Below, piece by piece: positions 3,031 through 21,701 of a DNA stretch of 44,284 nt (position 1 is its first letter; each line of letters starts with the position of its first letter). A program made the position numbers and the translations under genes. The stretch is from Hyphomicrobiales bacterium (GTDB lineage Bacteria; Pseudomonadota; Alphaproteobacteria; Rhizobiales; Methyloligellaceae), in the NCBI GenBank assembly GCA_021775575.1, contig JAJFHO010000032.1, positions 1 to 44,284 on the forward strand, in the 5' to 3' direction. The notes beneath the pieces are model-generated. The model was not told the DNA's origin, made no database searches, and worked only from the letters and a program-made list of their open reading frames with translations.

Positions 3031-3052
3031 GGCTCCGCGCGACCGCGGCCTA

Positions 3053-5004: not shown

Positions 5005-5016
5005 CTGGCGCTGTCC

Positions 5017-6861: not shown

Positions 6862-6923
6862 TACAAGGATGGCTCGACATCCAGCCGTTTTGGCGTGGAT
6901 ACCAGATCTTTCATACAATTCAT
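6861..6923 (-). CDS. Possible 20-residue leader peptide coupled to the ABC exporter
   Basis: A short reading frame starts at an ATG with GAGG eight bases upstream. This is a better ribosome site than any found for the ABC exporter itself. It reads MNCMKDLVSTPKRLDVEPSL and stops at a TAA that overlaps the exporter's preferred ATG (TAATG). This is the geometry of a translational coupler. No family is recognised. It may be only a chance frame in the 187-base gap between the methyltransferase and the exporter. Confidence 0.3.
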   Translation of the reverse strand: MNCMKDLVSTPKRLDVEPSL

Positions 6924-7048
6924 GATTGATCCCTCACCGACAGGGTGAGAAAACTTGAGGCCAGCAGATGCCCCGGCCAGCCGGTGCGAACTAGCTGCCT
7001 CCCGCATTAAATGGCAAATATGTCGACGCTTGTTGGCGAGAAACATGG

Positions 7049-8116: not shown

Positions 8117-8149
8117 AACCAATCTCCCTTTGCATTCGTTTTTCTGCGT

Positions 8150-8398
8150 TCACAACACGCGAGCGTCGGCTTCCTTTGTCCCGGTGTCGGCAGGCCGTGT
8201 TACGTCGGTCCAACAACCTTTCAGGCGACAGCAACCAAGCCGATACCAGATATCTAGCCCGGGATACGCGAAGGCGCTTGCGTGATCGTCGAGGCCAACT
8301 TGGAACAGGAAAGTCGATGCATCAATACGATGAACAACTTCACGCCAGGGAGTGGCCGGGTCGCAGGCGTGTGCGGCAATGTCGGTGGTCGATACCAT
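8150..8398 (-). CDS. Unrecognised 82-residue ORF in a 0.3 kb gap
   Basis: An ATG-initiated frame starting 11 bases after the cytidylyltransferase stop and ending 33 bases before the methyltransferase start. It has three cysteines near its middle (GCCRLKGC) and several tryptophans but no recognised domain, and no clear ribosome site. It may be a degraded relic, since 8117-8409 is the only notable gap in an otherwise tightly overlapping operon. It is listed to account for this stretch, not as a confident gene. Confidence 0.25.
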   Translation of the reverse strand: MVSTTDIAAHACDPATPWREVVHRIDASTFLFQVGLDDHASAFAYPGLDIWYRLGCCRLKGCWTDVTRPADTGTKEADARVL

Positions 8399-8409
8399 GC
8401 GTCAGCATG

Positions 8410-9129
8410 CTACACGGCCGACTCCGGTGTGAAATCGCTTGTCTCGGGCGGCAGCCCCGCTTTGAGCAGGGCCTCCGCAAGATGCCAGTCCTTCTCGGTG
8501 TCGATGTCGATTGCACGCCGCTTGTCGACCGGCAGCGGTAGAATTCTACCGGCATAGAGCGTGTTTTGTTGCCGGAGCGCCGTTGAGCGGGTGAGATATA
8601 GTGCGCCGTTAGGAACATAAACTGGGCGTCGGGCGTCTATTGCCAGCTGCGAACCTAATCCATCTTCATCGGCGAAATACAAACGCGCCGGAGGTAGGTG
8701 CAGCGCTGTCATCGCTATGACGCTGTCTACCTCAGGCCGTGTCCGAAGCAGCTCAACCGCGGCCACCAGGCACGCCCCGCCGCGAAAGGGTGAGGTTGGT
8801 TGCAACACCATCACCGCGTCCATATCGTGACCATGAGTGTTCTTGTACCAGTCGAGAGTATGCAATACGGCCTCGGTGGTGGTCGCATTATCACTCGCGA
8901 GTTCCGGCGGCCGGCGGAAAGGCACAATCCAGCCGAGCCGCTCTCCCTCAGCTGCAATGGCATCATCATCCGTCGTTAGTATCACTGGCACCTTTAGACC
9001 CGAGGCGGTTATGGCATCGGCCGTGTACGCGAGTAATGACTTCCCCGCCAACAGTTTGATGTTTTTGCCCGGCAGGCGTTTTGAACCGCCCCGGGCCGGA
9101 ACGACGATAAGCAATGAAGGAGCCGTCAT
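8410..9129 (-). CDS. CMP-nonulosonic acid synthetase, NeuA/PseF/LegF family (239 aa)
   Basis: Acylneuraminate cytidylyltransferase that joins CMP from CTP to a nonulosonic acid before its transfer. The CTP loop VVPARGGSKRLPGKNIKLL (9-27) is canonical, followed by LTTDDDAIA, LASDNATTTEAVLH, VLQPTSPFRGGACL (about 110-123) and IDIDTEKDWHLAE with the metal-binding aspartates. Length is typical for PseF and LegF (220-240). It has an ATG start six bases after the amidotransferase stop. Together with the NeuB and NeuC homologs downstream in sequence it marks this locus as a nonulosonic acid pathway. Whether the sugar is sialic, legionaminic or pseudaminic is not decided by sequence reading. Confidence 0.92.
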   Translation of the reverse strand: MTAPSLLIVVPARGGSKRLPGKNIKLLAGKSLLAYTADAITASGLKVPVILTTDDDAIAAEGERLGWIVPFRRPPELASDNATTTEAVLHTLDWYKNTHGHDMDAVMVLQPTSPFRGGACLVAAVELLRTRPEVDSVIAMTALHLPPARLYFADEDGLGSQLAIDARRPVYVPNGALYLTRSTALRQQNTLYAGRILPLPVDKRRAIDIDTEKDWHLAEALLKAGLPPETSDFTPESAV

Positions 9130-9135
9130 CGGTCC

Positions 9136-10413
9136 TTACTCGTCCTCCGAATTTCCCACCCTGTGCCTCAGTCTCCACCCCTCATTCGTTCTCTGCCACA
9201 GATGCGGTGAACGGAAACTGTCGGCAATCTCGAAAAACTCGTCTTCATCCATATCGAGATAGGCGAGAAAATCGGGGAAGTACTTTCGCGGGAACTCCTG
9301 ATCGTAACGATGAACCAGCGCTACGCCCTCCTCGCGGGTGATGTGATGGTTGCGGATTTCCTGGGCAGCGTCATAGGTTGCGCGGCCGATACCGAACTTC
9401 ACCAGAGTCGTCCAGTAGTGATAGGGATCGGTCTTGTCGTCGATGGAGTTGTATTTCGAGTATGTGCCCTCGGTGCGGTCCTCGTTGGCCTCGAAACCGA
9501 TATGCTCCGCCGCATAGTAGTAGCACTCTTGCGGGATCCACTTGAGGTAATAGCCGGTGTAGTGGACCTCCACTCCGGCCTTCTCCAGAGCCTCCGGATT
9601 GGCCGGCATGTATGGGTCCATCTGGCCGGGCAGAATACCGTGCTCTGGCAACTCCTCCATCGCTACACCGCCAAAATAGAGCGTCTCGCCCTGCTCCTCC
9701 TTGCGGGCGAAATAGGCCGGATCACGCTTGGCGCTCGTATTTTCGGCAACCGGGTTGCCGTATTCCGCCTCGTTCTCCCCATAGAATACCAGCGGGATGC
9801 CCATCTTCAGTGCCATCTTCGGTGCGTAGTTCTTCTGTCCGAAAATGAACGGCTGGAACGGGTGCAAAAGGTTCCGATAGGCCAGCCGGGTGAGCGTGCG
9901 GTGCATCACCCCATCCGGCGTAAACAGGTAATTGTCGAAACCGCCCTTATGAATCCAGGCCTGATGGTTGTACCAACCGACATCGGAATAAAGATGCGGC
10001 GCCCAGGTGACGGTCAGGGGATGCATGCCGAAATCCCGCTTCAGCACCATTGCGGCGTAGACGGAATCCTTTCCACCGGAGCCGGGGACCAGGCAATCAT
10101 AAGAGCCATTGCGCGACCGGTATGTGTCGCACAAGACCTGAAGCTGGTCACGTCGCCCCTCCCAATCGACACCATGATCCTTTTGCTCGGCATAACGGCA
10201 GGCATCGCAAATACCTTCCTCATCGAAACGGATGGTCGCCTTTTTGGATTCCTTGGTGTGCTTGAACTCCACCGATGAAGAAGGCCGCTGGTTGGAGATC
10301 ACACACCGCTTGCAGAACTTCACCTCGCCCGGCAGGCCGTACTTGATCTCGAGTTGGCCGTCTACGGGATCGTCTACAAACAATTTCCTGTTTTTCTCGA
10401 TTGTCTCAACCAT
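9136..10413 (-). CDS. PseA/WbpG-type N-acetyl sugar amidotransferase, intact PP-loop (425 aa)
   Basis: A member of the N-acetyl sugar amidotransferase family (PseA, WbpG). It is thought to activate the acetamido oxygen with ATP and replace it with ammonia, giving an acetamidino group. Two cysteine pairs, CKRC (34-37) and CDAC (69-72), flank the ATP-binding PP-loop PGSGGKDSVYAA, whose SGGKDS at residues 112-117 is intact. VTWAPHLY and FIFGQKNYAPKMA are further conserved blocks. In Pseudomonas and Campylobacter such proteins work with HisH/HisF-like ammonia suppliers, and those genes follow immediately upstream here (11-base gap). It is clearly paralogous to the protein at 14337. Confidence 0.9.
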   Translation of the reverse strand: MVETIEKNRKLFVDDPVDGQLEIKYGLPGEVKFCKRCVISNQRPSSSVEFKHTKESKKATIRFDEEGICDACRYAEQKDHGVDWEGRRDQLQVLCDTYRSRNGSYDCLVPGSGGKDSVYAAMVLKRDFGMHPLTVTWAPHLYSDVGWYNHQAWIHKGGFDNYLFTPDGVMHRTLTRLAYRNLLHPFQPFIFGQKNYAPKMALKMGIPLVFYGENEAEYGNPVAENTSAKRDPAYFARKEEQGETLYFGGVAMEELPEHGILPGQMDPYMPANPEALEKAGVEVHYTGYYLKWIPQECYYYAAEHIGFEANEDRTEGTYSKYNSIDDKTDPYHYWTTLVKFGIGRATYDAAQEIRNHHITREEGVALVHRYDQEFPRKYFPDFLAYLDMDEDEFFEIADSFRSPHLWQRTNEGWRLRHRVGNSEDE

Positions 10414-10424
10414 GTTCGCGTTTG

Positions 10425-11063
10425 CTATACCCTGATATCCGCCTTCAGGAAGCGGTCAAGCAGCCTGAGCCCGGCGGGTCCGCTCTTTTCGGGATGAAAC
10501 TGTACGCCGACAACATTGTCGCGCCGCACGGCGACCGGGATATCCACGCCATTGACGGGGATGGTCGCTGAAACATGTTCCTCGTTCTCTGCCATCGGTG
10601 CGTAGGAATGCACGAAATACATCAGGTCGTTTTCGCCGAGCGCACCAAGAATTGTCGCGCCGGGGCGCACATCCAGCCAGCGCCAACCTACATTTGGGAT
10701 GCGGGTGGCATTCGGGTCGTCTGGCCGCAAATCCGGCAGCCGCCCCACTGTCCCCGGGATCAAATCGAGACCCTCGTGCGCGCCAAACTCTTCACCCTTG
10801 CTAAGCAACAGCTGGCAACCAACACAGATCCCCAAAATTGGTGTTCCCCGGTGCGCCGCAGCCTTCAATGGTTCGACAAGACCTCGCTCCATAAGTCCAC
10901 GCATCGCGTCCCCGAAAGCCCCAACGCCGGGGAATATGACACGCTCTGCCAGCTCCAGCATCTCGGGATCGCCCGAAACCTGATAAGCAGCGTCCAAGTG
11001 CTCCAGAGCCCGTGCGAGACTGAAGAGATTGCCGCGACCATAATCGACAATGAGAACAGTCAT
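10425..11063 (-). CDS. hisH: HisH-like glutamine amidotransferase subunit for sugar amidation (212 aa)
   Basis: A class I glutaminase related to the HisH subunit of imidazole glycerol phosphate synthase. It starts VLIVDYGRGNLFSLARAL, has FPGVGAFGDAM, the nucleophile elbow GICVGCQLL (Cys at about 82), and VVGVQFHPEKSG with the catalytic histidine and glutamate. Canonical HisH has GICLGMQ, so the VGC change is a mark of divergence. Because it sits between hisF and a WbpG/PseA homolog, it is almost certainly the HisH2-type glutaminase that makes ammonia for acetamidino formation, not a histidine enzyme. Its ATG overlaps the hisF stop (ATGA). Confidence 0.9.
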   Translation of the reverse strand: MTVLIVDYGRGNLFSLARALEHLDAAYQVSGDPEMLELAERVIFPGVGAFGDAMRGLMERGLVEPLKAAAHRGTPILGICVGCQLLLSKGEEFGAHEGLDLIPGTVGRLPDLRPDDPNATRIPNVGWRWLDVRPGATILGALGENDLMYFVHSYAPMAENEEHVSATIPVNGVDIPVAVRRDNVVGVQFHPEKSGPAGLRLLDRFLKADIRV

Positions 11064-11851
11064 GCGGCCAGAGAATCCGGACGCACGGTAATGCCCTCTC
11101 TAGCCAGCGCAGCTTTCAATTCCGGCAGCGGCATGTGTCCGTAATGAAAAATGCTGGCGCAGGCGATGGCGTCAAGACCATCATCGCGCACTGCGTCGAT
11201 CACGTGCTGCGCTTCTCCCGCGCCACCGCAACCGATTACCGGGATCGAAACACGGCCCCGCACTGCCTGGAACAGAGTGTGGTCGAAGCCCCGGCGCGTA
11301 CCTTCCGCGTCGACCGATGTTACCAGAATTTCGCCCACTCCAAGTTTCTCGGCTTGATGCACCCACTCCAGAACATCGACGCAGGTGCGCTCACGGCCAT
11401 TGTCGGCGAGCGCCTCCCAGCGGCCTTCGCCGCGGCGCTTGGCTTCGACAGACAGGACAATGCACTGGCTGCCAAATGCCTCGGCAGCCTCGCGAATGAA
11501 ATCCGGCCGGGCTATCGCAGCGGTGTTGATTGCGACCTTGTCGGCTCCAGAGCGCAGGGCCGCGACGATATCATCGACGCTGCGAATACCACCGCCGACA
11601 GTGAGAGGCACAAAGATATCGCGGGCCGCCTCCTCGACCACTGGGAGGATGTTATTGCGACCATAGAGCGACGCGACGGTATCCATATAGATAATCTCGT
11701 CGACGCCCTGCTCGTAATAAGCCCTAGCCATCGGCCCCGGCTGACCGACAACACGCAAACCCTCAAGGTGGATGCCCTTGATGACATTCGGCCCCTTGAT
11801 GTCGAGACGTGCGATGATGCGAGGCGGCGGTGGGGTCAGGGAACTAGTCAT
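11060..11851 (-). CDS. hisF: HisF-like cyclase subunit paralog for sugar amidation (263 aa)
   Basis: A TIM-barrel protein of the HisF family. RIIARLDIKGPNVIKGIHLEG replaces the canonical IIACLDVDxGRVVKG. The first catalytic aspartate is kept (LDIK), and the second lies in TCVDVLEWVH. VPLTVGGGIRS and LVTSVDAEGTRRGFD are also kept. The RLDIKGPN form is typical of HisF2 paralogs in polysaccharide loci. It pairs with hisH (ATGA overlap) and probably guides ammonia to the PseA-like enzyme. The ATG at 11851 lies inside the end of the upstream sulfotransferase gene, an eight-base overlap; a longer reading to 11905 adds unrelated residues. Confidence 0.9.
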   Translation of the reverse strand: MTSSLTPPPPRIIARLDIKGPNVIKGIHLEGLRVVGQPGPMARAYYEQGVDEIIYMDTVASLYGRNNILPVVEEAARDIFVPLTVGGGIRSVDDIVAALRSGADKVAINTAAIARPDFIREAAEAFGSQCIVLSVEAKRRGEGRWEALADNGRERTCVDVLEWVHQAEKLGVGEILVTSVDAEGTRRGFDHTLFQAVRGRVSIPVIGCGGAGEAQHVIDAVRDDGLDAIACASIFHYGHMPLPELKAALAREGITVRPDSLAA

Positions 11852-12761
11852 AGTCGAACGCCCTGCGGAAAGCGGATAGATGGTTACGAACCAAGTCTTG
11901 TTCATCGCCCGTCAGCGCTTGGATGGAACGGTTGGCGGGGCCTGTCTCAATGCCCTTTGTGGCTATGAAACTCGATATGCCGGGCCAAGATTTGCCACGC
12001 ATCGTCGGCTCCAGAAGGCACAGCTCGAATGGAATGTCCAACCAACTGGCCAAACTCTTCATCGTGCCTCCGGGATCGGCGACAAGGTCCTCATAGCGAA
12101 CTGTCCGGATCCGATCCGGATCGGCCACTTCCACCCGCCCCTGCATGCGTTGGAAGCTCCGGATATTCTGCGCAATGAGAGGCCAGGTCAGCAGCTTATC
12201 GCCGCGCAGTTCGCGTGATCGTTTCAGACTATCGATCGCATAAAGTGGATCACGGAAGATAATGATGGCGCGCGATTCCTGGATCGTTCCCAGTGCCCCG
12301 GCAGCCGATTTTCCGTAGTCCGGAGACTTCATGCAGGCGAAACTCTTGCTTGGCTCGCCCATACCCGCCAGCCAGGCCGTCACCAGCCGCCGCCAGAGAC
12401 CTGCGACGCTCGCTTCGCCAGATTCAGCAAGAGCGGCGCGAAAAGCGTCTTCATCCCAAGGCGCCTCAATCTCCACCTCGGACACGCTGCCTCGCTCTTT
12501 TGACTGCTGGTAGGCCAAGTGCGCTGGTGGCATCACCTGCTTGTCCCTGAGACCAGCCACTAGCGGATCGATATCGGCTGGCAAAGCATCCAGAAAGATA
12601 TCAGTTGCATCGGTGCCCAGATCGTCGAGATACTCAAACAGAAACCCCTCATCAACGAGCCAGGCGACCTGCGAATGACCATCAAACAGATTGTACAACA
12701 GACTCGTGCCCGATCGTGGTGCACCGCTGATTATCAGGGGACGGCAATCGGTTAGCTCCAT
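11844..12761 (-). CDS. Sulfotransferase family protein, copy 2 (305 aa)
   Basis: A PAPS-dependent sulfotransferase. The 5'-phosphosulfate loop is canonical, PLIISGAPRSGTSLLYNLFD (residues 8-27). The 3'-phosphate site is IIIFRDPLYAIDSLKRSR with the expected Arg and Ser. TVRYEDLVADPGGTMKSLASW is the conserved tail of the Sulfotransfer_3 group. About 300 residues is the usual length. It has an ATG start and an eight-base overlap with hisF, 32 bases after the capsule-type gene. It would add sulfate to a sugar of the exported glycan; no PAPS-synthesis genes (cysDNC) are visible, so PAPS must come from elsewhere in the genome. Confidence 0.85.
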   Translation of the reverse strand: MELTDCRPLIISGAPRSGTSLLYNLFDGHSQVAWLVDEGFLFEYLDDLGTDATDIFLDALPADIDPLVAGLRDKQVMPPAHLAYQQSKERGSVSEVEIEAPWDEDAFRAALAESGEASVAGLWRRLVTAWLAGMGEPSKSFACMKSPDYGKSAAGALGTIQESRAIIIFRDPLYAIDSLKRSRELRGDKLLTWPLIAQNIRSFQRMQGRVEVADPDRIRTVRYEDLVADPGGTMKSLASWLDIPFELCLLEPTMRGKSWPGISSFIATKGIETGPANRSIQALTGDEQDLVRNHLSAFRRAFDYD

Positions 12762-12793
12762 AGTGACGGCTCGTTCACGAATGTAATGCCGAA

Positions 12794-14275
12794 TCAGCCA
12801 GCCACCGCATGGGCCGGGTTAGGTGCATGGAGGCCGGACCTTAGGGCCGCGTAGGCAGCGTCGACTGCAGCATCACTCACTTTGTCGGGTTCGATTGGCG
12901 CGAAATCCGCAAGGTCGAAGGACACATCAATGACAGCTTGCAAAAATCGCCGGCCATCGCGCTTCGCCTGCTCTGCATCAAAGTCGTCTGACAAAGCACG
13001 TCGCAGATAGCTCTTCAATTGCGCCTCGTCCGTTACCACCATGACATGCGGAAGGAAGTTATAAATGTTGTGGCGGCCGAAACTGATGACCGGCCGCCCC
13101 ATGATGGCACCCTCGAAACCACTGGTGCCGCTGATAGTCACGACCGCGGCTGCAGCGCGCGCCGCCTCCATACCCAGTTTTGCCATATTCAACATTTGAA
13201 CACTCTTGAACTCGCGGATCTGCCCATAGAAATCGCGCGGACGCCGCCCTACGGCTGCGTAGTGCTCCTTGACAGCCAGGATGACGCCAGCCGGCAGGTC
13301 ACGCGCAACCGAGGCGATCGCCGGCAATTGATAGAAGTACTCGGGTGACAGCATCTGCAGTGCCGTTTCTGGCTCCGTTGCCAGCGGGAAGAATACGAAG
13401 GGCGTCCCGGCCAGACCTTCGACGCCCGTCTCTTCGCTCCCCGTGAGCCGCCTGATGTCCCGGTAACGCCGCCACAGATAGCTGATATTCTCAGAGAGGA
13501 AATAGCCCCTAGCCTTATCGTAACCGCGCGCCATCCAGTAGGCTTGCCGAAGAATGAGATAACCGATCGCCCGAACGGTGGACCACAACGAAGCGCCTTT
13601 CCGAAAACGCGCCCTGAAATGCAGATGCGCGTCATAAGGTGCTTTGAGGCCGAGTTTCGGCGATGGCCGCGCTACCCGATAGGCGGGCTCGAACGCCGGG
13701 TTCTCCAGATACTCGTTGACCGCCCAGTAATGAAAACTCTTATAACGTGAGCCCGCCAGGATGCGTACCAGGATGTTATGCTGTCGTGCGAGAACACAAA
13801 GCACCTTGCCTGCATTGATAATGAGATCTGGCTTGTTGTCTTCCAACTCCTGGCGCCAGAAATCGATCTGAACATTAAATGCGTTCAGCATCTGGACGTG
13901 ACTGGTGCGCTCCGAGACGTGTGAGCGGGGATGGCGGAAACCGCCGAGCGCGAAGCCGCGGCCAAGATGCCGGTCGCTGACCGCCAGTTCTGTGATGGTG
14001 ACGCCGAGTTCGGCCTCGTTACGCCGCGCTTCTGCAATAACACCGGCCTCGTCAGGGGGCGGTTGACGGCATATTTCGTAAAGCTGGTTCGCAACGGTGA
14101 TAGTGGCAAAGAGCGCACCGTGGTTAAGGCGGTAATAGTCCGACTCCTGCGTTGAAATTGTATAGAGATGGATGTCAGCCTGACATTCCTCCACCAGCCG
14201 GCGAGCAATGCCAAGATAGACGCCCCGGTATTCCGAATGAGCGACGAGAAGGACAGAGGTTCCTTTACCTAGCAT
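12794..14275 (-). CDS. Capsule polysaccharide biosynthesis-type protein (493 aa)
   Basis: The C-terminal half (about 285-430) resembles the Capsule_synth family (KpsC/KpsS/LipB group). It has FVFFPLATEPETALQMLSPEY, then GVILAVKEHYAAVG, VVTISGTSGFEGAIMGRPVI and SFGRHNIYNFLP, the family's order of FPLxxxPE, KxH, a GS/TxGxEA loop and GKPVIxFG. Family members build capsule linkers with Kdo or transfer other acidic sugars at the cytoplasmic face. The N-terminal half resembles the nucleotide-independent half of GT-B enzymes. The ATG at 14275 has AGG five bases upstream; a GTG at 14281 is the alternative. Fifty-five bases separate it from the amidotransferase paralog. Donor and acceptor are unknown. 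Confidence 0.7.
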   Translation of the reverse strand: MLGKGTSVLLVAHSEYRGVYLGIARRLVEECQADIHLYTISTQESDYYRLNHGALFATITVANQLYEICRQPPPDEAGVIAEARRNEAELGVTITELAVSDRHLGRGFALGGFRHPRSHVSERTSHVQMLNAFNVQIDFWRQELEDNKPDLIINAGKVLCVLARQHNILVRILAGSRYKSFHYWAVNEYLENPAFEPAYRVARPSPKLGLKAPYDAHLHFRARFRKGASLWSTVRAIGYLILRQAYWMARGYDKARGYFLSENISYLWRRYRDIRRLTGSEETGVEGLAGTPFVFFPLATEPETALQMLSPEYFYQLPAIASVARDLPAGVILAVKEHYAAVGRRPRDFYGQIREFKSVQMLNMAKLGMEAARAAAAVVTISGTSGFEGAIMGRPVISFGRHNIYNFLPHVMVVTDEAQLKSYLRRALSDDFDAEQAKRDGRRFLQAVIDVSFDLADFAPIEPDKVSDAAVDAAYAALRSGLHAPNPAHAVAG

Positions 14276-14336
14276 TTTCACCTAACCGATCAGAGCTATC
14301 CCGGTAACAACAGAGCATCCCGGTCCAAGTGCGGAA

Positions 14337-15650
14337 TCATCGCCCGTTCCCATCCGCGACCCTGTGGCGAAGCTGCCAGCCGCCGCCACTTCGGTGCCAC
14401 AGATGGGGGGAACGGAAACTGTCCGCGATTTCGTGAAACTCCGCTTCCTCCATTCGCAGATAATCCAGAAATTCGGGAAAGATCTTTTCCGGAAATTCAT
14501 CGTCATGGCGATGCACCAGCGCGATGCCCTGTTCCCGGGTTATCTGGCCGCTACGGATCCGCCGGCTCGCGTCATAAGTTGCCCGGCCAACCCCGTATTT
14601 CACCAGCGTCGTCCAGTAATGAAAGGGATCCGTCGTGTCGTCGCTCGACACCTGTGTCGCATATGCGTCTTCAATGCTTCCATCCCCGGAATCCAATTCG
14701 GAGATTTCTTCCCGGCCAGCCTCATCGCACAGCACATCTTTCAGATAGTAGCCGACAAAGTGAGCCTCGATACCGGCGCTCTCCAATCTGGCGGCATCGA
14801 CGGGCAGATAGGGGTCCATCTGCCCCGGAGAAATTCCGTGGCTCGGAAGTTCTTCGAGCTGAACGCCGCCAAAATAGAGCGTCCTTCCCTCCCCCTTCAG
14901 ATCGGCAAAATAGGCCAGATCCCTCTTTCCTCCGACCCGTCCTGTGAGCTCGGCGCCGTATTCCGCTTCACCCTCGGCGTAAAAAATCAGCGGAATGCCC
15001 ATCTTGAGCGCCATTTTCGGCGCGTAATTATTCTGTCCGAAGATGAAGGCCTGGAAGGGATGCAGCAGGTTCCGGAACGCCAATTGTGTCAGTTTGCGAT
15101 GCGCGTCGCCATCCGGCGTAAACAGATAATTGTCAAACGCTCCCTGATGAACCCACGCCTGGTAATTGTTCCACCCGACATCCGTGTATAGGTGCGGCGC
15201 CCAGGTCACGGTAAGCGGCTGCATACCGAACTCCTCCCGGAGCACACGGGCAATATGGACAGATTTGCTACCGCCCGAGCCGGGAACAATGCAGTCATAG
15301 GAGCCGCTGCGCGACCGGTATTTGTCGCACAACGCCGTCAACTCCGCCCGCCGCGCCTCCCAGTCGGCAACATGGTCCATCTGTTCGGCGTAGCGGCACG
15401 CATCGCATATACCGTCATCATCGAAATAGCTCGTCGACTTCTTGGAATCTATCGCATAGCGGAATTCAACCGATGTCGACGGCCGCTGGTTGGAGGTGAC
15501 GCAGCGCCTGCAGTATCTGACTTCTGGGGGCAATCCATACTTGACCTCCAAAAGTCCCTCCTGCGCGTCCCTCACAAAAATTCGACCGTCCTTGTCGACT
15601 ATCTCTGCCACCGGTTTATCCGTCACTTCGCTACCCTGTCTGATGGTCAT
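14337..15650 (-). CDS. PseA/WbpG-type amidotransferase paralog with altered PP-loop (437 aa)
   Basis: Closely related along its whole length to the protein at 9136. The cysteine pairs CRRC (47-50) and CDAC (82-85) and the blocks VTWAPHLYTDVGW, FIFGQNNYAPKMALKMGIPL and ADSFRSPHLWHR are kept. The ATP loop is changed: SGGSKS (125-130, bases 15261-15278) stands where the paralog has SGGKDS, so the aspartate typical of SGGxDS PP-loops is lost. An acidic insertion of about 12 residues lies at about 318-345 (EEISELDSGDGS and around). The frame is fully open and the ATG overlaps the neuC stop (ATGA), so it is expressed and not decayed. It may be a non-catalytic partner, or use another chemistry. Confidence 0.85.
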   Translation of the reverse strand: MTIRQGSEVTDKPVAEIVDKDGRIFVRDAQEGLLEVKYGLPPEVRYCRRCVTSNQRPSTSVEFRYAIDSKKSTSYFDDDGICDACRYAEQMDHVADWEARRAELTALCDKYRSRSGSYDCIVPGSGGSKSVHIARVLREEFGMQPLTVTWAPHLYTDVGWNNYQAWVHQGAFDNYLFTPDGDAHRKLTQLAFRNLLHPFQAFIFGQNNYAPKMALKMGIPLIFYAEGEAEYGAELTGRVGGKRDLAYFADLKGEGRTLYFGGVQLEELPSHGISPGQMDPYLPVDAARLESAGIEAHFVGYYLKDVLCDEAGREEISELDSGDGSIEDAYATQVSSDDTTDPFHYWTTLVKYGVGRATYDASRRIRSGQITREQGIALVHRHDDEFPEKIFPEFLDYLRMEEAEFHEIADSFRSPHLWHRSGGGWQLRHRVADGNGR

Positions 15651-16780
15651 ACCGGCAAGTTGAGACGCTTGCGCAGTATGCCGTCGAAGCTTTGAACCCG
15701 CACTAGCGCGTCCGCGACCTTCGGCGCCGCATCGCCATCGCCATAGGGCGTTCCGGGATCGCTGCGCGCGGGTTCCGGTCCCAGCCTGTCGAGCGTCGCA
15801 ATAATCGCGTCGGCCTCGTTCGGCAGGTCGATCACATTGTCTCCACGTTCGCGCCCTGCCTGGCGATTGCCGACATTCACCGCCGGGAGACCGAAAAGGC
15901 CTGCCTCGATGATACCGCTTGAAGAGTTCCCCAGCATCAGCGCGGCATGGCGCAAGGTATTGGCATAGAGCCGTGGCTCCAGCGTATCGCGGTAGTGGGC
16001 CCAGTCGTGAGCGGCTACGAACGCAGCGATGCGCGCCTTCATTTCCCGTCCGCCCGGATCACTGTTCGAAGCGGTAAAGAATGTTGGCTGCGGGCAGGCC
16101 TCAAGCGCGGGAAGTATGGCGTCGAGCGGCGCACGGGGGTTTGCCGCATTGGTTTCGGGATGCACCGTAACAAGGCGCAGTCCCTCGGTTGTCGGCATGC
16201 TCAATCCGGCGGCAAGATCGCCGGCTGAAATCTGCTCGGCGTTTTTCAACGTATCCAGCCCCGGCGCTCCAGTTACGGTAATCCTCTGGTCTTCCTCACC
16301 CATCGCCAGCAGTCGGCGGCGCGACCCTTGCGATGAAACACAGTGCAAGTGAGCGAGCTTGGTAATCGCGTGCCGAATCCTGTCGTCAACCGCACCTTCG
16401 GTGATTTCGCCGCCATGCAAATGCATGATCGGAGTATTGAACGGCAGGCTGGCAACCGCGGCGGGCAACATGTCAAGCCGGTCACCGATCAACAACAGGA
16501 CGTTCGGTTCAACCGCGGCGTAAAGGTTGGCGGCGGCACGGGTGATCAGCGCCATTGCCTCTGCCGCCTGGCCGGGCTCTTGTCCGCCGAGATCATCGCC
16601 GCCATCATGCACCACCGCCGCATCGGGTATGCCGACAACCGGTGGCGCCGCCTCCGCGCGGTGCATGCCGGTGAAGAACAGATGGAGGCTCACTCCCTGC
16701 CTGTCGGCAAGCGCCTGCCATACCGGTGTAAGAATACCCACATCGGCACGGCCGGAGGAGACGGACAGCACGCGGATCAC
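15647..16780 (-). CDS. Hydrolysing UDP-sugar 2-epimerase, NeuC/LegG family (377 aa)
   Basis: A GT-B fold hydrolysing 2-epimerase. NeuC turns UDP-GlcNAc into ManNAc; LegG turns UDP-diacetamidobacillosamine into diacetamido-trideoxymannose. Seen are VSSGRADVGILTPVWQAL at the start, LLLIGDRLDMLPAA, HLHGGEITEGAVDDRIRHA (about 121-139), VTGAPGLDTL and LGNSSSGIIEAG, all NeuC-family blocks. The GTG start overlaps the neuB stop by four bases. The order neuD-neuB-neuC matches sialic/legionaminic clusters. As a PseB-like enzyme and amidotransferases are present, a diamino sugar substrate is plausible, but the sequence does not settle it. Confidence 0.9.
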   Translation of the reverse strand: MIRVLSVSSGRADVGILTPVWQALADRQGVSLHLFFTGMHRAEAAPPVVGIPDAAVVHDGGDDLGGQEPGQAAEAMALITRAAANLYAAVEPNVLLLIGDRLDMLPAAVASLPFNTPIMHLHGGEITEGAVDDRIRHAITKLAHLHCVSSQGSRRRLLAMGEEDQRITVTGAPGLDTLKNAEQISAGDLAAGLSMPTTEGLRLVTVHPETNAANPRAPLDAILPALEACPQPTFFTASNSDPGGREMKARIAAFVAAHDWAHYRDTLEPRLYANTLRHAALMLGNSSSGIIEAGLFGLPAVNVGNRQAGRERGDNVIDLPNEADAIIATLDRLGPEPARSDPGTPYGDGDAAPKVADALVRVQSFDGILRKRLNLPV

Positions 16781-17790
16781 GTTGCCGGTTCGTCCAGGTC
16801 GCTTTGCATTATGGCGCTGTCACGGACGAGCGCTTTACGCAGCCGGGCACCAACCGGCGAGATTGCCGGAGGAAGGCCGCCAGCCGGCCGCTTGAGGACA
16901 ATGTCGCCCTCCGAGATCGCATGTCCGGCCGTCAGTTCCCGCGCCGCGTGCCAGCTGCGCCTGACCTTTTGCGCGGTTTCTCTCTCGCCCGGCGCGGGCT
17001 GCTTGCGGCCGTCGCCCAGAGCGAGCGAGGTATCGCGCAGTTTCACGACCATCTCCGCCAACTCGCCCGGCTCCAGCGAAGCGCGGTGATCGGGCCCCTG
17101 CAACGCGCGGTCCAGCGTGAAATGCTTTTCGACAATGCAGGCTCCCAACGCCACAGCCGCGACCGCGGCCTGATCGCCAAGGCTATGATCGGAGAATCCG
17201 ACCGGCAGAGCGAAATGCTCCGCCATTGCGGGGATTGCGCGCAGGTTCAGTGTTTCCATCGGAGCTGGATAAAGCGACGTACAGTGCAGGAGCGTAATGT
17301 CTGTCGCGCCGGCCTCACGCAGAGTGCTCACCGCTTCCTCGACTTCTTCAAGGGTCGCCATGCCGGTGGACAGCAGGATCGGCAGGCCGGTTCCCGCAAA
17401 GTGCCGCAGCGCCGGCGTGTTGGTGAGTTCCCCTGACGCAATCTTGATCCGGTCCATGCCTTTATCGGCGAAATAGTCGACCCATTCCGGATCGAAGGCC
17501 GTGCACAGAAACCCGATGCCACGGCTTTGGCATTCTGTTATCAGCCCGTCGTAATCAGATCGGCTCAATTCCAGCGGCTGCAGCAGCGCAACCTGATCGT
17601 TCAGACCTGTGGCCGATGCCTGATAGGCCGCCGTCGGTGCGCCGACCGCCACAAGATTCTCGGCCCGGAACGCCTGGAATTTGACGTAGTCCGCACCGGC
17701 ATCCGCGGCAGCGGAAACCATCTCTATGGCGCGCGCGACGTCTCCATTGTGGTTTACGCCCGCTTCCGCGATGACGAGCGGAAATCTCAC
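16777..17790 (-). CDS. neuB: NeuB-family nonulosonic acid synthase, copy 2 (337 aa)
   Basis: A NeuB/LegI/PseI-type PEP condensing enzyme. The barrel has VIAEAGVNHNGDVARAIEM, YVKFQAFRAENLV, IKIASGELTNTPAL, LLHCTSLYPAPMETLNLRAI, VGFSDHSLGDQAA and IVEKHFTLDRALQGPDHRAS. The C-terminal SAF domain starts near RRSWHAARELTAGHAISEGD. All are canonical, so this is the orthodox nonulosonate synthase of the locus. The start is GTG at 17790 in a GTGA overlap with the acetyltransferase stop; the longer open frame to 17895 is an extension antisense-free but unrelated to the family. It acts on the product of the adjacent NeuC-like enzyme. Confidence 0.93.
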   Translation of the reverse strand: MRFPLVIAEAGVNHNGDVARAIEMVSAAADAGADYVKFQAFRAENLVAVGAPTAAYQASATGLNDQVALLQPLELSRSDYDGLITECQSRGIGFLCTAFDPEWVDYFADKGMDRIKIASGELTNTPALRHFAGTGLPILLSTGMATLEEVEEAVSTLREAGATDITLLHCTSLYPAPMETLNLRAIPAMAEHFALPVGFSDHSLGDQAAVAAVALGACIVEKHFTLDRALQGPDHRASLEPGELAEMVVKLRDTSLALGDGRKQPAPGERETAQKVRRSWHAARELTAGHAISEGDIVLKRPAGGLPPAISPVGARLRKALVRDSAIMQSDLDEPAT

Positions 17791-18365
17791 AAGGGATACC
17801 GGGTCAATGCCTTGACCAGTATGCCGTCCGGCACCGCTACGCCCTGGAGAATGACCGAGCCCGCGCCGATCATGCAGTTTTTGCCGACGCTGCACCCGCC
17901 CAGCACGATCGCGCCGGGTGCGATATGGGTTCCCTCGCCAATCTGACTGTCATGCTCGACGATCGCGCCGGTGTTGATGATGACGCCGTCACCGATTACC
18001 GCACAGGGCTGAACAGTCGCCCCGGCCAGAATGACGACGCCCTTACCCAGAACCGCGCTCGCGGCGATCGTGGCCGTCTTGTGAACCAATGGCGGCGCCT
18101 CCCAGCCCTTCTCCAGGAAAGACCGGAATATGCCGAGCCGCTTTTGAAGCGCGCCGGGCTTGACACCGCCATGGCCCAAAACCAGTTTTCCCGGCTTGAG
18201 GGCATCGGCCTGCGACCTCTCGGCCAGATGCTTTCCGGCCAGCCAATCCTGGGGCCTTGGGTCGAGATAGGCATCGATCGGCTGACCCGCCTCCTCCAGC
18301 ATTTCGGCCAGCTGTTTGGCGTGCCCGCCCGCGCCGACAAGTAATCGGGTCACCTGCTTTTCCAC
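17787..18365 (-). CDS. NeuD/PglD-type sugar acyltransferase (192 aa)
   Basis: A left-handed beta-helix acyltransferase of the NeuD/PglD family. The N-terminal RLLVGAGGHAKQLAEMLE is the Rossmann-like sugar-binding part. From about residue 90 the hexapeptide repeats run (TATIAASAVLGKGVVILAGA, INTGAIVEHDSQIGEG, GGCSVGKNCMIGAGS). The catalytic His lies in VEHDSQIG. Such enzymes acetylate an amino or hydroxyl group of a nonulosonate precursor. It is the first gene of the 18 kb minus-strand operon. The start is GTG at 18365, with another GTG four codons later. Its leader carries the ops element at 18425-18436. Confidence 0.87.
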   Translation of the reverse strand: MEKQVTRLLVGAGGHAKQLAEMLEEAGQPIDAYLDPRPQDWLAGKHLAERSQADALKPGKLVLGHGGVKPGALQKRLGIFRSFLEKGWEAPPLVHKTATIAASAVLGKGVVILAGATVQPCAVIGDGVIINTGAIVEHDSQIGEGTHIAPGAIVLGGCSVGKNCMIGAGSVILQGVAVPDGILVKALTRYPL

Positions 18366-18424
18366 CTGGTCATGGTTGCAAACCGGTCTCCGGCATATCT
18401 GTCTGACAGGTTAAGCGCTTCAGC

Positions 18425-18436
18425 CACGCTACCGCC
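18425..18436 (-). promoter_or_regulatory. Perfect ops (RfaH recruitment) element in the operon leader
   Basis: The minus strand reads GGCGGTAGCGTG, identical to the ops core of enterobacterial JUMPstart leaders, where paused RNA polymerase recruits RfaH through the exposed non-template strand. It lies about 60 bases before the first gene of the long operon, in the correct orientation, and an RfaH/NusG paralog is encoded at 20385. This would let polymerase read the whole operon without termination. No other copy of the full 12-mer was seen in the window. Confidence 0.78.
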
Positions 18437-18528
18437 ACTTGGGTGACGCGACCGCCAACCATTTGCATAGATCGGAGTTTGGGGCACTCGACACAATTGT
18501 CTGCATTGCCGGATTGTTCGCGATAGAC

Positions 18529-18545
18529 TGTTCATGAAATGAACA
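18529..18545. promoter_or_regulatory. Operator-like palindrome 1 (GTTC-N7-GAAC)
   Basis: TGTTCAT-GAA-ATGAACA is a perfect inverted repeat with 7-base arms, in the intergenic region between the minus-strand glycan operon and the plus-strand aldo/keto reductase. It is centred 34 bases from a second palindrome with the same half-site spacing. A third copy of the form lies at 21598-21612. The binding protein is not known; the winged-helix regulator at 20885 is the obvious candidate. Confidence 0.6.
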
Positions 18546-18560
18546 TTATGGTCAAGGTTT

Positions 18561-18581
18561 AATGTTCACACGACGAACATT
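18561..18581. promoter_or_regulatory. Operator-like palindrome 2 (GTTC-N7-GAAC)
   Basis: AATGTTC, seven bases, GAACATT: a perfect inverted repeat in which the GTTC and GAAC half-sites keep the N7 spacing of palindrome 1. A further half-site (TGTTCATGAATG) overlaps the start of the aldo/keto reductase at about 18622. The pair lies about 50-100 bases upstream of that gene, so it could control both directions. The spacing equals that of alphaproteobacterial LexA boxes, but those are direct GTTC repeats, whereas this one is inverted. Confidence 0.6.
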
Positions 18582-18626
18582 GAAGTTAATGCCCGGCGGC
18601 CGCCGGACCACACCGGATTGCTGTTC

Positions 18627-19520
18627 ATGAATGCGCGCTTGCCTCTGACGCTTGGAACCGCCACCCTTGGAATGGCCTACGGCGTTGCCAATCCTCGGGA
18701 AATTCCGACCACGGATACAGCATTCGCTATTCTTGACCGGGCTTGGGAGACGGGTGTGACATGCCTCGATACCGCCCCCGCCTATGGCGAGGCGGAGAGA
18801 CGCATCGGCGAGTGGATGCGCTTGCGAAATGCCGGGCCCGCTCTGGTGACCAAGCTTCCTTCCCTTGCCGGCGTATCGGACGGCGATGCGGGGGCTGCGA
18901 TACGCAAAGCCCTCGAAGGCTCCTTCCGCGCGCTCGGCGTCACACGGGTATACGGATATCTGACCCATGATGCGACGGACTATCTTCGGCCGGCCGTAAG
19001 ACAGGCCCTGGCGGCCCTCTCGCATGAGGGAAAAATTGAGGGCTATGGCCCTTCGGTCTACGTCGCGGACGAGGTGTTCGCGGCGATTGACGCGGGATCG
19101 CCGGACCTGATCCAGCTCCCGGTCAGCGCACTGGATCAGCGGATGATTGTGTCCGGCGCGCTCGAGGCCTGCGAAAAAGCCGGGGTGACAATGTTTGCGC
19201 GAAGCGTTTTCCTGCAAGGTCTCCTTCTCATGCCGCCGGCACGAATTTCCGCAAAGCTCGCCGACCTGGTGCCGGCAGTCGATGCCTTTCAGGAGCTTGC
19301 GAGGAAAACGGAAATGAACCCGCAAAGCCTCGCCCTGCGCTTTGTCCGCGGTCTTTCGGGGGTCGCATCGGCCGTGGTCGGGGTCTATTCCACGCAGCAA
19401 CTCGATGAACTGGCAACAGCAGCAGCGGAACCGCCGCTCCAGCCGGCGATTGCCAACGCCCTCGGGTCTATCGCTGGTCAGATTCCCGAACCGCTGCTGG
19501 ACCCTCGGCACTGGCCGTAA
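18627..19520 (+). CDS. Aldo/keto reductase (297 aa)
   Basis: A NADPH-dependent TIM-barrel reductase. The catalytic tetrad is visible: Asp and Tyr in CLDTAPAYGEAERRIGEW, Lys in LVTKL, and His in YGYLTHDAT. The C-terminal cofactor segment VVGVYSTQQLDEL is also present. Length is near the family's 300. The ATG at 18627 is preferred to TTG at 18618. It is transcribed away from the nonulosonate operon, from a region holding two palindromic operators, which ties it to the glycan locus. Its last 53 bases overlap the end of the convergent methyltransferase gene. Related reductases occur in surface-sugar clusters with SpsF-type genes; the substrate is not known. Confidence 0.87.
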   Translation: MNARLPLTLGTATLGMAYGVANPREIPTTDTAFAILDRAWETGVTCLDTAPAYGEAERRIGEWMRLRNAGPALVTKLPSLAGVSDGDAGAAIRKALEGSFRALGVTRVYGYLTHDATDYLRPAVRQALAALSHEGKIEGYGPSVYVADEVFAAIDAGSPDLIQLPVSALDQRMIVSGALEACEKAGVTMFARSVFLQGLLLMPPARISAKLADLVPAVDAFQELARKTEMNPQSLALRFVRGLSGVASAVVGVYSTQQLDELATAAAEPPLQPAIANALGSIAGQIPEPLLDPRHWP

Positions 19521-20385
19521 TGGCCGGCACACGCGAAACCGTATCCAGCATTACGAGATTGGCAAGCAGCTTGCGGCCCAGCCATCCGAGCACGGGAATA
19601 GCCAGCAGCTGCCCCAGCAACCGCCTCAGGCCCTTTGGTCCGTCATAATCGCTCAAATCGCTTAATCCCATGAATCGCTTCATGGTTCGAATCTCGCAAT
19701 GCCCAAGGTACCGCCTGACTAGTTTCCGGTGGACCCACGGCCAACGCAGAAAAAGATGGCCCTCAGGCACTGTCATGTCCTGGCCCATACGCCTTAATAT
19801 TGCGAGCCATAGGCTGCGTGGCAGATAATGCAGCAGCCAGGTCTGCGTATGGCTGTCGTAGGGCACCAGCCTGTGCGGCACCTGATGATAGGCCATGCCG
19901 CCCGGCGCAAGCGTTCGTCCTTCCTCGGCATAATAGCTGTCGAGGACGTCGGGGTGAATATGCTCCACGACCTGGGTTGAGAACACAAAATCGAAATAGT
20001 CGTCGTCGAAGGGCAGCGTCTCGCCATCATACACGAAGAATCTTTGCCCCTTCAGACCCAGTCGGTCATTGAGGAAAGCGTTAAACGACTCGCACCATCC
20101 GCCAATGTCCACTCCGTGGATGCCCTCATACCCGTTGGCCAGCAGAAACAGCAGCGTAAGGGCGCCGCCGCATCCGTGATCCAGTATCCTGACTTGCGAT
20201 CTGGGACGCTCGCCGCGCGCCTCGTCAAGCAGGTCCAGAAAAAGCTGCAGATGGTAGGGTGGTTTTTCAGCGCATGCATCGACGGCGCTGCGAAACCCAG
20301 TCCAGGCGGCCGTGGGATCGCGGCCCTGCTGAATGGCATCGGCAAGCGGCCTGTATGCGGCCTTTATTTCCAGCCAGTTCGACAT
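19468..20385 (-). CDS. SAM-dependent methyltransferase, Methyltransf_11-like (305 aa)
   Basis: A class I methyltransferase. RILDHGCGGALTLLFLLANG is motif I (residues about 67-86), IHGVDIGGWCESFN carries the acidic residue of motif Post I, and FDDDYFDFVFSTQVVEHIHPD is the typical motif IV of this group. The C-terminal 110 residues are basic and partly hydrophobic (LLGQLLAIPVLGWLGRKLL), so membrane association is possible. The ATG at 20385 overlaps the NusG-paralog stop (TGATG). It probably methylates a sugar or a lipid-linked intermediate. It is the third gene of a regulator, NusG paralog, methyltransferase operon. Confidence 0.82.
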   Translation of the reverse strand: MSNWLEIKAAYRPLADAIQQGRDPTAAWTGFRSAVDACAEKPPYHLQLFLDLLDEARGERPRSQVRILDHGCGGALTLLFLLANGYEGIHGVDIGGWCESFNAFLNDRLGLKGQRFFVYDGETLPFDDDYFDFVFSTQVVEHIHPDVLDSYYAEEGRTLAPGGMAYHQVPHRLVPYDSHTQTWLLHYLPRSLWLAILRRMGQDMTVPEGHLFLRWPWVHRKLVRRYLGHCEIRTMKRFMGLSDLSDYDGPKGLRRLLGQLLAIPVLGWLGRKLLANLVMLDTVSRVPAITASAEGPAAVRESDQR

Positions 20386-20888
20386 CAACCCAGCGGCGTG
20401 ACCGCATCGATCGGCACTTCGGCCCGCACCTCGCGGCCGAGTAGCGACAGCAGGACGACGACCCGTTCGTCGTCGCGCGCAGTCTGGAAGATCGCTTCAT
20501 ATTCGGCAAAAGGACCTGCCTCGATCCGCAGCTTGGCGCCGGGCGAGAGATCGGCGTTGCGTGCGAGAATAACAAAGCCGTCTTCGTCCGACCGCTTCTC
20601 GATCTCTTCGATGATCTCGGCCGGCGCCGGTACCGGGTCAAGACCGCTGCGCACCAGATCGACGACACCGCGGGTTGACCGGATTACGCGCCACTCGGGC
20701 TCATCGGCATCAAAGGCAGCAAAAATGTAACGGGGGAACAATGGCGCGGGCACATCCTCGACACGCCGCGCATGCCGGCGGCGTTTTATGTATCGCGGAG
20801 CAAAGACTTCAAACCCCTGCCGCTCCAGATGCTCGCGTGCAACGGATTCCCGATGCGGCTGCGTATAAACCGCGTACCAGCGTTTCAT
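20385..20888 (-). CDS. RfaH-like NusG paralog, specialised antiterminator (167 aa)
   Basis: The N-terminal NGN domain starts RWYAVYTQPHRESVAREHLE and has FEVFAPRYIK, PLFPRYIFAAFD and VIRSTRGVVDLVR, the polymerase-clamp-binding surface of NusG/RfaH. The C-terminal KOW domain begins LSPGAKLRIEAGPFAEYEAIF. Short length (about 165) and location in a glycan locus mark it as an RfaH/UpxY-type specialised paralog, not the housekeeping nusG, which is normally beside secE and rplK. Such proteins are recruited at pauses to prevent Rho-dependent termination in long surface-polysaccharide operons. The perfect ops at 18425 is a good target. The ATG overlaps the regulator stop (ATGA). Confidence 0.92.
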   Translation of the reverse strand: MKRWYAVYTQPHRESVAREHLERQGFEVFAPRYIKRRRHARRVEDVPAPLFPRYIFAAFDADEPEWRVIRSTRGVVDLVRSGLDPVPAPAEIIEEIEKRSDEDGFVILARNADLSPGAKLRIEAGPFAEYEAIFQTARDDERVVVLLSLLGREVRAEVPIDAVTPLG

Positions 20889-21568
20889 TCGGCGGCCTGC
20901 TTCGCCTTACCGCGTTTCGCCTGCCGGCGGTGCGTCAACTGCAACAGTTTCGGAGCCAGCGTGCGCTTGGCGCCAATCTCCGATTCAATCGCCCTGTAGA
21001 CCGCGTCGGGCTCCGTCAGGTCCGTAACGATCACAGCATCGACGCCCTGAAGATGGCGGAGCGAACCGGCAATCGGCAACCCCTGGAAATTCTCCTGCGA
21101 CGACGACGGGTCGATCACGCCAACGAGAGTTATGTCGAAATCCCGTCCGCTGAGAATGCCAACCTCGGCAAGCTCTGAAACACCGGCAAAGGCGATCCGC
21201 TGCCAACCCTTTTGTACGCAATGCTCCAGAAGATCCGACATCTGCTTCCGCGCCCGGCGAAAAAAGGTAAAGGAGGACGACAGATAGTTGCCGGTCAGCC
21301 GCGCCTTTTCCGAAAAGCCCTGCGGTGTCAGATAATAGGCATAGCGCCGGGGCGGTACCTGCTGGATTTTTATCCAGCCCTTGCGGACGCAGCGCTTGAG
21401 GTAGGAGTTGGCGAGGCCGAGCGCAACACCCAGTTCACTCGAAATCATCCGTTGCGACATGTTCGCATCGCGCTCAATCGCGGTCAGCATACCGAGCGTG
21501 ATTTCGTCCTCGTTCCGGAAGCTGTCCGGCTCCCGGGCCGGTTCGCTTCCTCGTCCGGTCTTTGGCAT
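20885..21568 (-). CDS. Winged-helix regulator with a Rossmann-like C-terminal domain (227 aa)
   Basis: The N-terminal 100 residues are a winged helix like the MarR-type EPS-associated regulators: EITLGMLTAIERDANMSQRM, ELGVALGLANSYLKRCVRKG, then the wing RRYAYYLTPQGFSEKARL. Residues about 120-200 form a second domain, RIAFAGVSELAEVGILSGRD, LVGVIDPSS, GLPIAGSLRHLQGVDAVIVT, which looks like an N-terminal Rossmann domain of PglD or sugar-modifying proteins and might sense a nucleotide sugar. The ATG at 21568 is preferred to GTG at 21622 because a palindromic operator and a promoter lie between them. It is coupled to the NusG paralog, and may autoregulate and control the divergent operons. Confidence 0.8.
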   Translation of the reverse strand: MPKTGRGSEPAREPDSFRNEDEITLGMLTAIERDANMSQRMISSELGVALGLANSYLKRCVRKGWIKIQQVPPRRYAYYLTPQGFSEKARLTGNYLSSSFTFFRRARKQMSDLLEHCVQKGWQRIAFAGVSELAEVGILSGRDFDITLVGVIDPSSSQENFQGLPIAGSLRHLQGVDAVIVTDLTEPDAVYRAIESEIGAKRTLAPKLLQLTHRRQAKRGKAKQAAE

Positions 21569-21597
21569 GCCTGTCACTTTTCTCTTGATCTGCGAGC

Positions 21598-21627
21598 GTT
21601 CATAGCATGAACTCTCGATCACGTCAC
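21598..21627 (-). promoter_or_regulatory. Predicted regulator promoter overlapped by operator palindrome 3
   Basis: GTTCAT-AGC-ATGAAC (21598-21612) is a perfect palindrome of the GTTC-N7-GAAC form also seen at 18529 and 18561. On the minus strand it covers a possible -10 box TATGAA (21604-21599), 17 bases from a possible -35 box GTGACG (21627-21622). The region lies between the winged-helix regulator and asnB. The overlap of palindrome and -10 suggests autorepression; the promoter boxes are only 4/6 matches. Confidence 0.5.
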
Positions 21628-21701
21628 CCCGTCGCCGGGTAAGGGAGCCGATCGCAATTCCCGCAACCTGCGTCTTGTGCTTGAAAGAAAGACGTCACCT
21701 C

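Follow-up and report, generated by a model that had tools for sequence, protein, structure and literature searches.

The DNA analysed here (the window) comprises 44,284 nucleotides, positions 1 to 44,284 of contig JAJFHO010000032.1, from a Hyphomicrobiales bacterium of the Alphaproteobacteria (assembly GCA_021775575.1). Its minus strand carries a long cluster of glycan genes whose leader contains ops, the element read by RfaH in Escherichia coli, and, on the far side of two intervening genes, a gene for an RfaH-like paralog of NusG. Comparison with related genomes showed the element to be conserved throughout the class in strand, position and core and to be associated with the paralog; the genes following it are mostly of the surface-glycan type. 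It is therefore highly probable that the locus carries an alphaproteobacterial RfaH-ops control module and, as far as the genomes compared can tell, the system is wider than the single-locus observation from which it started.

The ops word GGCGGTAGCGTG is present as an exact match on the minus strand at 18425–18436, as the preliminary description had read it. C3, G4, G5, T6, A7 and G8 are all exact and lie on the non-template strand of the leader, and the TG of the pause dinucleotide (T11 G12) is present as well. As a bare 12-mer the word is unremarkable genome-wide: the 4.06-Mb genome contains one copy, with about 1.3 expected from base composition and two copies of the reversed control word. 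What counts is its placement, since base composition alone would put only 4e-5 copies on the sense strand of the leader, the 252 bases (18366–18617) between the divergent aldo/keto reductase gene and the NeuD-type gene. The word lies 59 bases before the first open reading frame (ORF) of the cluster (17787–18365) and on its sense strand, so the earlier statement that ops precedes the minus-strand cluster by about 60 bases in the right orientation stands; that the 17 cluster ORFs form one transcript is an assumption. A scan of the leader for terminators found none, which is about the chance expectation.

In a sample of 397 genomes of the order, 77 contained the paralog (threshold E ≤1e-20), and 78 regions around paralog matches plus the window gave 79 loci. 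The pattern GCGGTAGNNTG occurred 33 times in these loci and its reversed control 14 times, and many of the matches crowded into a short same-strand zone on the 3' side of the paralog. Alignment of the matches in this zone brought out a conserved upstream box, giving the composite element TCACCC-N5-GCGGTAGC. With a leave-one-out position weight matrix, the best match in 49 of the 79 loci scored above 16.5 bits, the highest reversed control of any locus, and the window element scored 25.3 bits versus 11.0 for its own reversed control. The matrix used 33 of 35 matches, two CGGTAGNNT matches (L072 at +2855 and L089 at +200) being left unused. Relaxed patterns detected at least one element in 52 of the 79 loci (54 elements) versus 8 control matches, after three of 57 matches had been dropped as off-pattern (L071 at +9502, L076 at −1282 and L084 at −453). 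The alignment set contained 49 of the 54 elements, 5 near-identical ones being omitted, and alignment A1 contained 48, without L121, which has a longer spacer. Forty-three elements, in as many loci, lie 41–235 bp 3' of the paralog and on its strand; the other 11, including that of the window, are at distances of 1–10 kb, with three in the opposite orientation to the paralog.

The exact 12-mer had to be rejected as the conserved unit. It was found in only 5 of the 79 loci (5 of 54 elements) because positions 1, 10 and 12 vary: among the 52 loci, position 1 is T in 35 and G in 17, position 10 is variable, T11 is present in 40 and G12 in 28, and in 10 of the 12 loci without T11 a T comes one base later. 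Judged from these alignments, the conserved word is GCGGTAGC preceded by TCACCC. The expectation that the word would be kept in orthologous leaders was thus borne out for the ops core (43 loci 3' of the paralog and 9 more elsewhere in the stretch) and not for the 12-mer. The core was also recovered without being selected for. With TCACCC alone as the anchor, 46 boxes were found 20–260 bp 3' of the paralog in 45 of the 79 loci; 41 of these were followed at +5 by GCGG[TC]AGC (GCGGTAGC in 39, GCGGCAGC in 2), and each of C3, G4, G5, T6, A7 and G8 was kept in 40–44 of the 46 boxes. In the same zone of the 79 paralogs, GCGGTAG was found 44 times on the sense strand and never on the antisense strand, a bias that fits reading of the non-template strand rather than a double-strand operator.

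Several variants are worth noting: 1) GCGGTAGCCGT, GCGGTAGCAAT and GCGGTAGCTAT are among those in which the pause T is displaced one base downstream relative to ops, the loci being L062, L067, L071, L072, L082, L096, L101, L105, L122 and L123. 2) L090, L127 and L132 carry the core variant GCGGCAGC, in which T6, the base flipped out by E. coli RfaH, is changed to C, so that they offer a natural test of T6 readout. 3) L080 (genome G253) has two elements in series (10169–10217 and 11927–11975, 1.76 kb apart), the first of which precedes a sugar transferase gene. 4) In L071 (genome G028) the paralog is flanked by elements at 9634–9682 (minus strand) and 11009–11057 (plus strand) that face away from each other, and it may serve two divergent operons.

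A search of all 397 genomes of the order for the exact pattern TCACCCN5GCGGTAGC found it in 57 of the 77 that have the paralog and in 9 of the other 320 (Fisher 6.5e-42), compared with 5 of 77 and 14 of 320 for the reversed pattern. The composite pattern is at background in the genomes without the paralog and common in those with it, so that the second refuting result named in the preliminary description did not materialise. The association in these genomes is not independent, because the motif was discovered in them. An independent set was drawn from the class (385 genomes, five of the window's order being left out of the counts), the paralog being defined as a match of at least 86 bits and the listed matches of 73.8 bits or less being taken as housekeeping NusG or distant forms. 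Here the exact pattern occurred in 41 of 86 genomes with the paralog versus 7 of 294 others (8.9e-24), and the reversed control in 2 and 5, respectively. The class draw gave 34 matches on the paralog's contig (own genome included), 23 of them no more than 300 bp 3' of the paralog and on its strand. Outside the class, 149 genomes of the phylum, in which the paralog was not sought, gave the pattern in 9 and the reversed control in 6, which is background. The composite element was also absent from 23 NusG loci of the window's family (71 kb) and from L003, L004 and L005, the first two of which we take, from their genus and family names, to be gammaproteobacterial relatives.

Two origins, deep conservation or transfer, had been proposed for the control system. 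Deep conservation within the Alphaproteobacteria fits better than recent transfer from enterobacteria, because the element occurs across the class, is at background in the 149 genomes searched outside it, and the window scores far below threshold against the JUMPstart family RF01707 (12.1 bits with a gathering threshold of 35, a weak match seen at a lax threshold only). In plasmid MesoLj131b2 of Mesorhizobium sp. 131-2-5 (L230), the paralog is followed at 60 bp by an element whose spacer has one extra base, and a gene for a nucleotide sugar dehydrogenase comes directly after this element; three other named plasmids (L229, L231 and L232) had no element in the fetched stretches. Two genomes, G025 and G287, contain consensus-like elements and no paralog at 1e-20; their paralog may be absent from the assembly or diverged.

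The preliminary description had placed an RfaH-like gene about 2 kb from ops, and both parts of this were upheld: ops is 1.95 kb away, on the 3' side of the gene, and the gene product scores best with RfaH among the NusG-type models tried (TIGR01955, 139.4 bits, just below the cut-off of 144.5; TIGR00922 NusG, 51.8 bits). None of the 385 class genomes passed the curated TIGR01955 cut-off. A second, separate NusG-family gene is located on another contig of the genome (C81), in keeping with an RfaH-type paralog that accompanies a housekeeping NusG. The window protein aligns with residues 1–158 of E. coli RfaH (E 7e-19) and keeps the ops-site residues H20, R23, Q24, T72 and R73, including all four of the T6 pocket (H20, R23, Q24 and R73), whereas E48 is replaced by Ala. 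Its AlphaFold2 (AF2) model has a beta-barrel C-terminal domain (predicted local distance difference test, pLDDT, 74.3 for the best of five models and 55.0 for the worst; predicted template modelling score, pTM, 0.55), and the top Foldseek match of the model by E-value is recruited RfaH on the ops-paused complex (8phk, TM 0.55). Across the 52 paralogs whose fetched stretch contains an element (window included), Q24 and G74 are invariant and T72 (49) and R23 (35) are frequent, followed by H20 (17, with N in 27), I93 (13, with V in 36), F130 (9) and E48 (3). RfaH as defined by the E. coli protein is thus matched only in part, the family cut-off and K10 being missed and autoinhibition being doubtful. 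A residue-to-base correlation between protein and element gave loose trends only and was not used.

Upstream of the core, the TCACCC arm can pair with a GGGTGA-like arm, leaving an apparent loop of 3 to 22 nucleotides. The predicted hairpin of the window forms in the minimum free energy (MFE) structures of 49- and 43-nucleotide stretches. Covariation from MAFFT alignments was unusable owing to the variable loops, across which MAFFT set no gaps, and arm-swap tests were used instead. In 47 elements, own arms paired at 323 of 423 positions versus a mean of 309.6 and a maximum of 320 in 500 arm swaps (0 of 500 reached the observed value), and versus a mean of 269 and a maximum of 282 with shuffled upstream sequence. 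At the three outer positions, in 38 of the 47, 64 of 114 were paired versus 49.6 (standard deviation 3.3) after swapping (0 of 2000). An overlapping set of 93 elements had a full partner for CCC in 60, and in these the first four spacer positions were paired in 137 of 240 cases versus a swap mean of 111.4 and a maximum of 129 (0 of 2000), the excess coming from position 2 (38 of 60 versus 26.3) and less from positions 1 and 4. In the class, where 30 of 52 matches, those returned as loci, were used, the region has a more stable predicted fold than its shuffled versions (mean z −1.98, as against −0.14 for a downstream control). With U11 counted as zero, TCACCC occupies positions from about −20 to −15, and the outer stem reaches to around −11 or −12. 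The geometry of the his pause indicates where a pause-stabilising hairpin would sit, and the predicted position would suit such a hairpin. A near copy of ops, GGCGGTCGCGTC, lies at 18445–18456 on the minus strand of the window, 20 bp upstream of ops and within the hairpin arm and loop; the equivalent site in L061 reads GGCGGCAACGTC.

The inverted repeat GGGTGA...TCACCC could instead be a double-strand operator for a dimeric regulator, such as the neighbouring MarR-type protein, with GCGGTAGC as part of the site. Such a repeat is found in many copies of the element, a MarR-type gene lies directly upstream of the window paralog, and an ORF occupies the equivalent place in the nearest relative. 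However, a loop varying from 3 to 22 is unlike a dimer site, conservation is much stronger in the 3' arm than in the 5' arm, the core keeps to one strand with respect to the paralog (44 to 0), and GCGGTAGC is the known ops core, all of which make an operator unlikely. Slightly less likely still is plain pausing or attenuation, in which hairpin and consensus pause would act without the paralog and be linked to it only through shared glycan loci. The ops element is indeed a consensus pause for RNA polymerase itself (PMC5995543), but the composite element is at background in genomes without the paralog, and its conserved bases include G4, G5, A7 and G8, which that source gives as dispensable for pausing in E. 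coli. That the element is where translation of a leader peptide stops (frame TCA CCC NNN NNN CGG TAG) is very improbable: TAG is in frame with TCA CCC, but upstream stop codons close this frame within 12 codons in 22 of 54 elements, compared with 13 and 15 for the two alternative frames, and some spacers contain an in-frame TAA (TCACCCTAACGG). A chance 12-mer in this single genome, for which the near-chance number of one copy in 4.06 Mb would speak, is already refuted by the position of the site and its class-wide conservation.

The best reading of these comparisons is a class-wide alphaproteobacterial RfaH-ops system with a JUMPstart-like layout, usually located beside its own gene, and working of the RfaH-ops kind is well supported by them. 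RNA polymerase entering the leader of the glycan operon would produce an RNA hairpin with TCACCC as its 3' arm and next reach GGCGGTAGCGTG, a consensus pause in E. coli. As in E. coli, the non-template strand of ops would fold into a mini-hairpin closed by C3:G8 and expose G5 and T6; the RfaH-like protein encoded at 20385–20888 would read this strand, remain on the polymerase and exclude NusG and Rho, so that the 18-kb operon could be transcribed and translated. Recruitment, pausing and antitermination are inferred. Since most of the paralogs lack the E48 autoinhibition contact, their selectivity may be due to the element and to how near it lies to the gene. A more specific proposal, that the class-wide signal is a nascent-RNA hairpin (TCACCC arm) fused to ops and read by non-autoinhibited RfaH proteins mostly beside their targets, is put forward tentatively and strikes us as rather doubtful as a whole; the I93 and F130 that the window protein retains count against it.

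A number of observations weigh against these proposals. In the window protein, K10 and R16 are replaced (Q and V, respectively) and, as regards lost autoinhibition, I93, F130, R138 and L142 are all kept. Of the 52 paralogs accompanied by an element, 2 have K10, 9 have R16 and 9 have R73; the chemistry of the ops contacts must differ from that in E. coli, since these residues are important there and mostly replaced here. The AF2 model was built on a thin alignment of five sequences. A scan for sigma-70-like promoters at 18300–18750 found none (0.5 expected by chance). By the patterns used, 16 of the 79 paralogs have no element, and 11 more have the exact pattern only elsewhere in the genome, some perhaps by chance. 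As for the hairpin, it is missing from the MFE structure of a 50-nucleotide window stretch with other ends, 33 of the 93 elements lack a full CCC partner, spacer positions 3 and 5 show no excess of pairing, the swap test in the class is weak (30 elements; the observed value was attained in 7 of 300 swaps), and the arm-swap statistics ignore relatedness.

Recruitment of RfaH in E. coli depends strictly on G4, G5, A7 and G8 and is aided by C3 and T6; T11 G12 determine the pause, and the DNA mini-hairpin presenting G5 and T6 is closed by C3:G8 (PMC5995543). Autoinhibition needs E48, I93 and F130 (PMC7593976). The systems described here share with E. coli RfaH/ops the core bases, TIGR01955 as the best model, glycan operons as targets and a leader element in sense orientation. 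They differ in that E48, K10 and R73 are mostly replaced, position 1 is T in 35 of 52 loci, in 43 of 79 loci the element lies close by, 41–235 bp 3' of the paralog, instead of being confined to distant operons, and the C-terminal domain of the window protein is predicted to be a beta-barrel. JUMPstart RNA, listed for gamma-Proteobacteria as a conserved stem-loop in polysaccharide-gene leaders (PMC2864571), has a structured region followed immediately by GGCGGUAGCGUG at the 3' end of the RF01707 model, the last 12 positions being the ops word, a layout like the one predicted here; the predicted structure here has a conserved TCACCC arm and a variable loop. The loci of six relatives contained no Rfam family at threshold; a snoRNA match in the window at lax threshold and the sole Rfam match of the Mesorhizobium element, to a miRNA, were dismissed as chance. 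LoaP is also a NusG paralog whose target leader, dfn, needs a small RNA hairpin, but its recruitment is not via ops and that hairpin gives no discernible pause (PMC12691694); against the LoaP model, whose cut-off is 125, the window protein reaches 47.9 bits.

RfaH homologues of Alphaproteobacteria are not new in themselves, as they make up 18% of rfaH genes, and one group of homologues is associated with a helix-turn-helix (HTH) regulator gene (PMC7593976). The same source calls E. coli RfaH the sole representative whose mode of recruitment is known in detail, and places ops recognition and autoinhibition together as late steps of RfaH evolution. The closest parallel is provided by monomorphic, cis-acting homologues (PMC13015549), which also have a predicted beta-barrel C-terminal domain, an E48A-like state and a gene beside a long glycan operon. 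E48A turns E. coli RfaH ops-independent, and these beta-barrel homologues are described as resembling that mutant, whereas here a conserved ops element stands beside the gene; the accessible text contains no mention of Rhizob, Sphingo, Caulobacter, Methylobacterium or alphaproteobacter. No report of an ops element in Alphaproteobacteria was found in the literature covered (titles, beginnings of abstracts and passages, most subscription journals lying outside the coverage). RfaH-like proteins mostly without E48 beside a conserved ops core would separate ops recognition from autoinhibition. If the hairpin proposal is true, the sequence-specific reading of ops would be a property distinct from fold-switching, and the hairpin may take the place of autoinhibition as gate, either through stabilisation of the pause or through binding of the protein. 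The loci also supply many natural pairs of element and protein for testing how ops is read when K10 and R73 are replaced, and the element may serve as a handle for locating long glycan operons in alphaproteobacterial genomes.

Features of the window, with positions on the forward strand and the evidence for each
Feature	Position	Strand	Evidence
RfaH-like NusG paralog, 167 aa (P0001)	20385..20888	-	Pfam NusG 2.1e-22; TIGR01955; AF2/Foldseek
ops core GGCGGTAGCGTG (positions 1-12)	18425..18436	-	exact match, single genomic copy
Composite element TCACCC-N5-GCGGTAGC	18428..18446	-	pattern match in own genome; position weight matrix
Predicted RNA hairpin TGGTTGGCG-GTCG-CGTCACCCA, one internal T x C mismatch	18440..18461	-	-8.8 kcal/mol alone
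Putative ops-led glycan operon, 17 minus-strand ORFs	455..18365	-	ORF list, gaps; 8 of 17 scanned for families
First gene after ops, NeuD/PglD-type acetyltransferase	17787..18365	-	TIGR03570 150.6 bits, cut-off 160.8
Aldo/keto reductase gene, divergent from glycan cluster, between methyltransferase gene and ops	18618..19520	+	PF00248 2.5e-28
Methyltransferase gene directly after paralog	19468..20388	-	Methyltransf_23
MarR-type regulator gene, upstream of and overlapping paralog	20885..21622	-	HTH_24; TIGR04176 MarR_EPS 63.9 bits, cut-off 88

Most ORFs of the glycan cluster overlap or are less than 60 bp apart, with two larger gaps of 130 and 287 bp. The members named among the 8 of 17 ORFs scanned include NeuD, NeuB, NeuC, a WbuX amidotransferase, a capsule-synthesis-like protein and a sulfotransferase. 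In the nearest relative (L002, a Hyphomicrobiales metagenome-assembled genome), the paralog is 74% identical to that of the window and the gene order is alike, with ORFs in the MarR-type, paralog, methyltransferase and reductase places (families assigned by eye) followed by ops; the ORF in the reductase place has the orientation seen in the window as well. The operon after ops begins there with a DegT aminotransferase, followed by a PglD/NeuB/NeuC-type trio like that of the window, and is different beyond it. Of 48 first ORFs found after elements, 20 were scanned and 15 proved to be of the surface-glycan type (sugar-nucleotide, sugar-transferase, sulfo- or carbamoyl-transferase, or Wzy genes); the others comprised three GFO/IDH/MocA oxidoreductases, one beta-helix protein and one ORF without a match.

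Two further regions of the window deserve mention. The minus-strand region 11060–15650, within the glycan cluster, encodes the WbuX-type amidotransferase, a His_biosynth-family protein and the sulfotransferase, which together suggest a nonulosonic-acid glycan that is amidated and possibly sulfated. On the plus strand, 21675–23642 encodes an asparagine-synthase-type protein (TIGR01536, 474.8 bits, above the cut-off), which also resembles the XrtA/PEP-CTERM amidotransferase (590.9 bits, cut-off 816.9).

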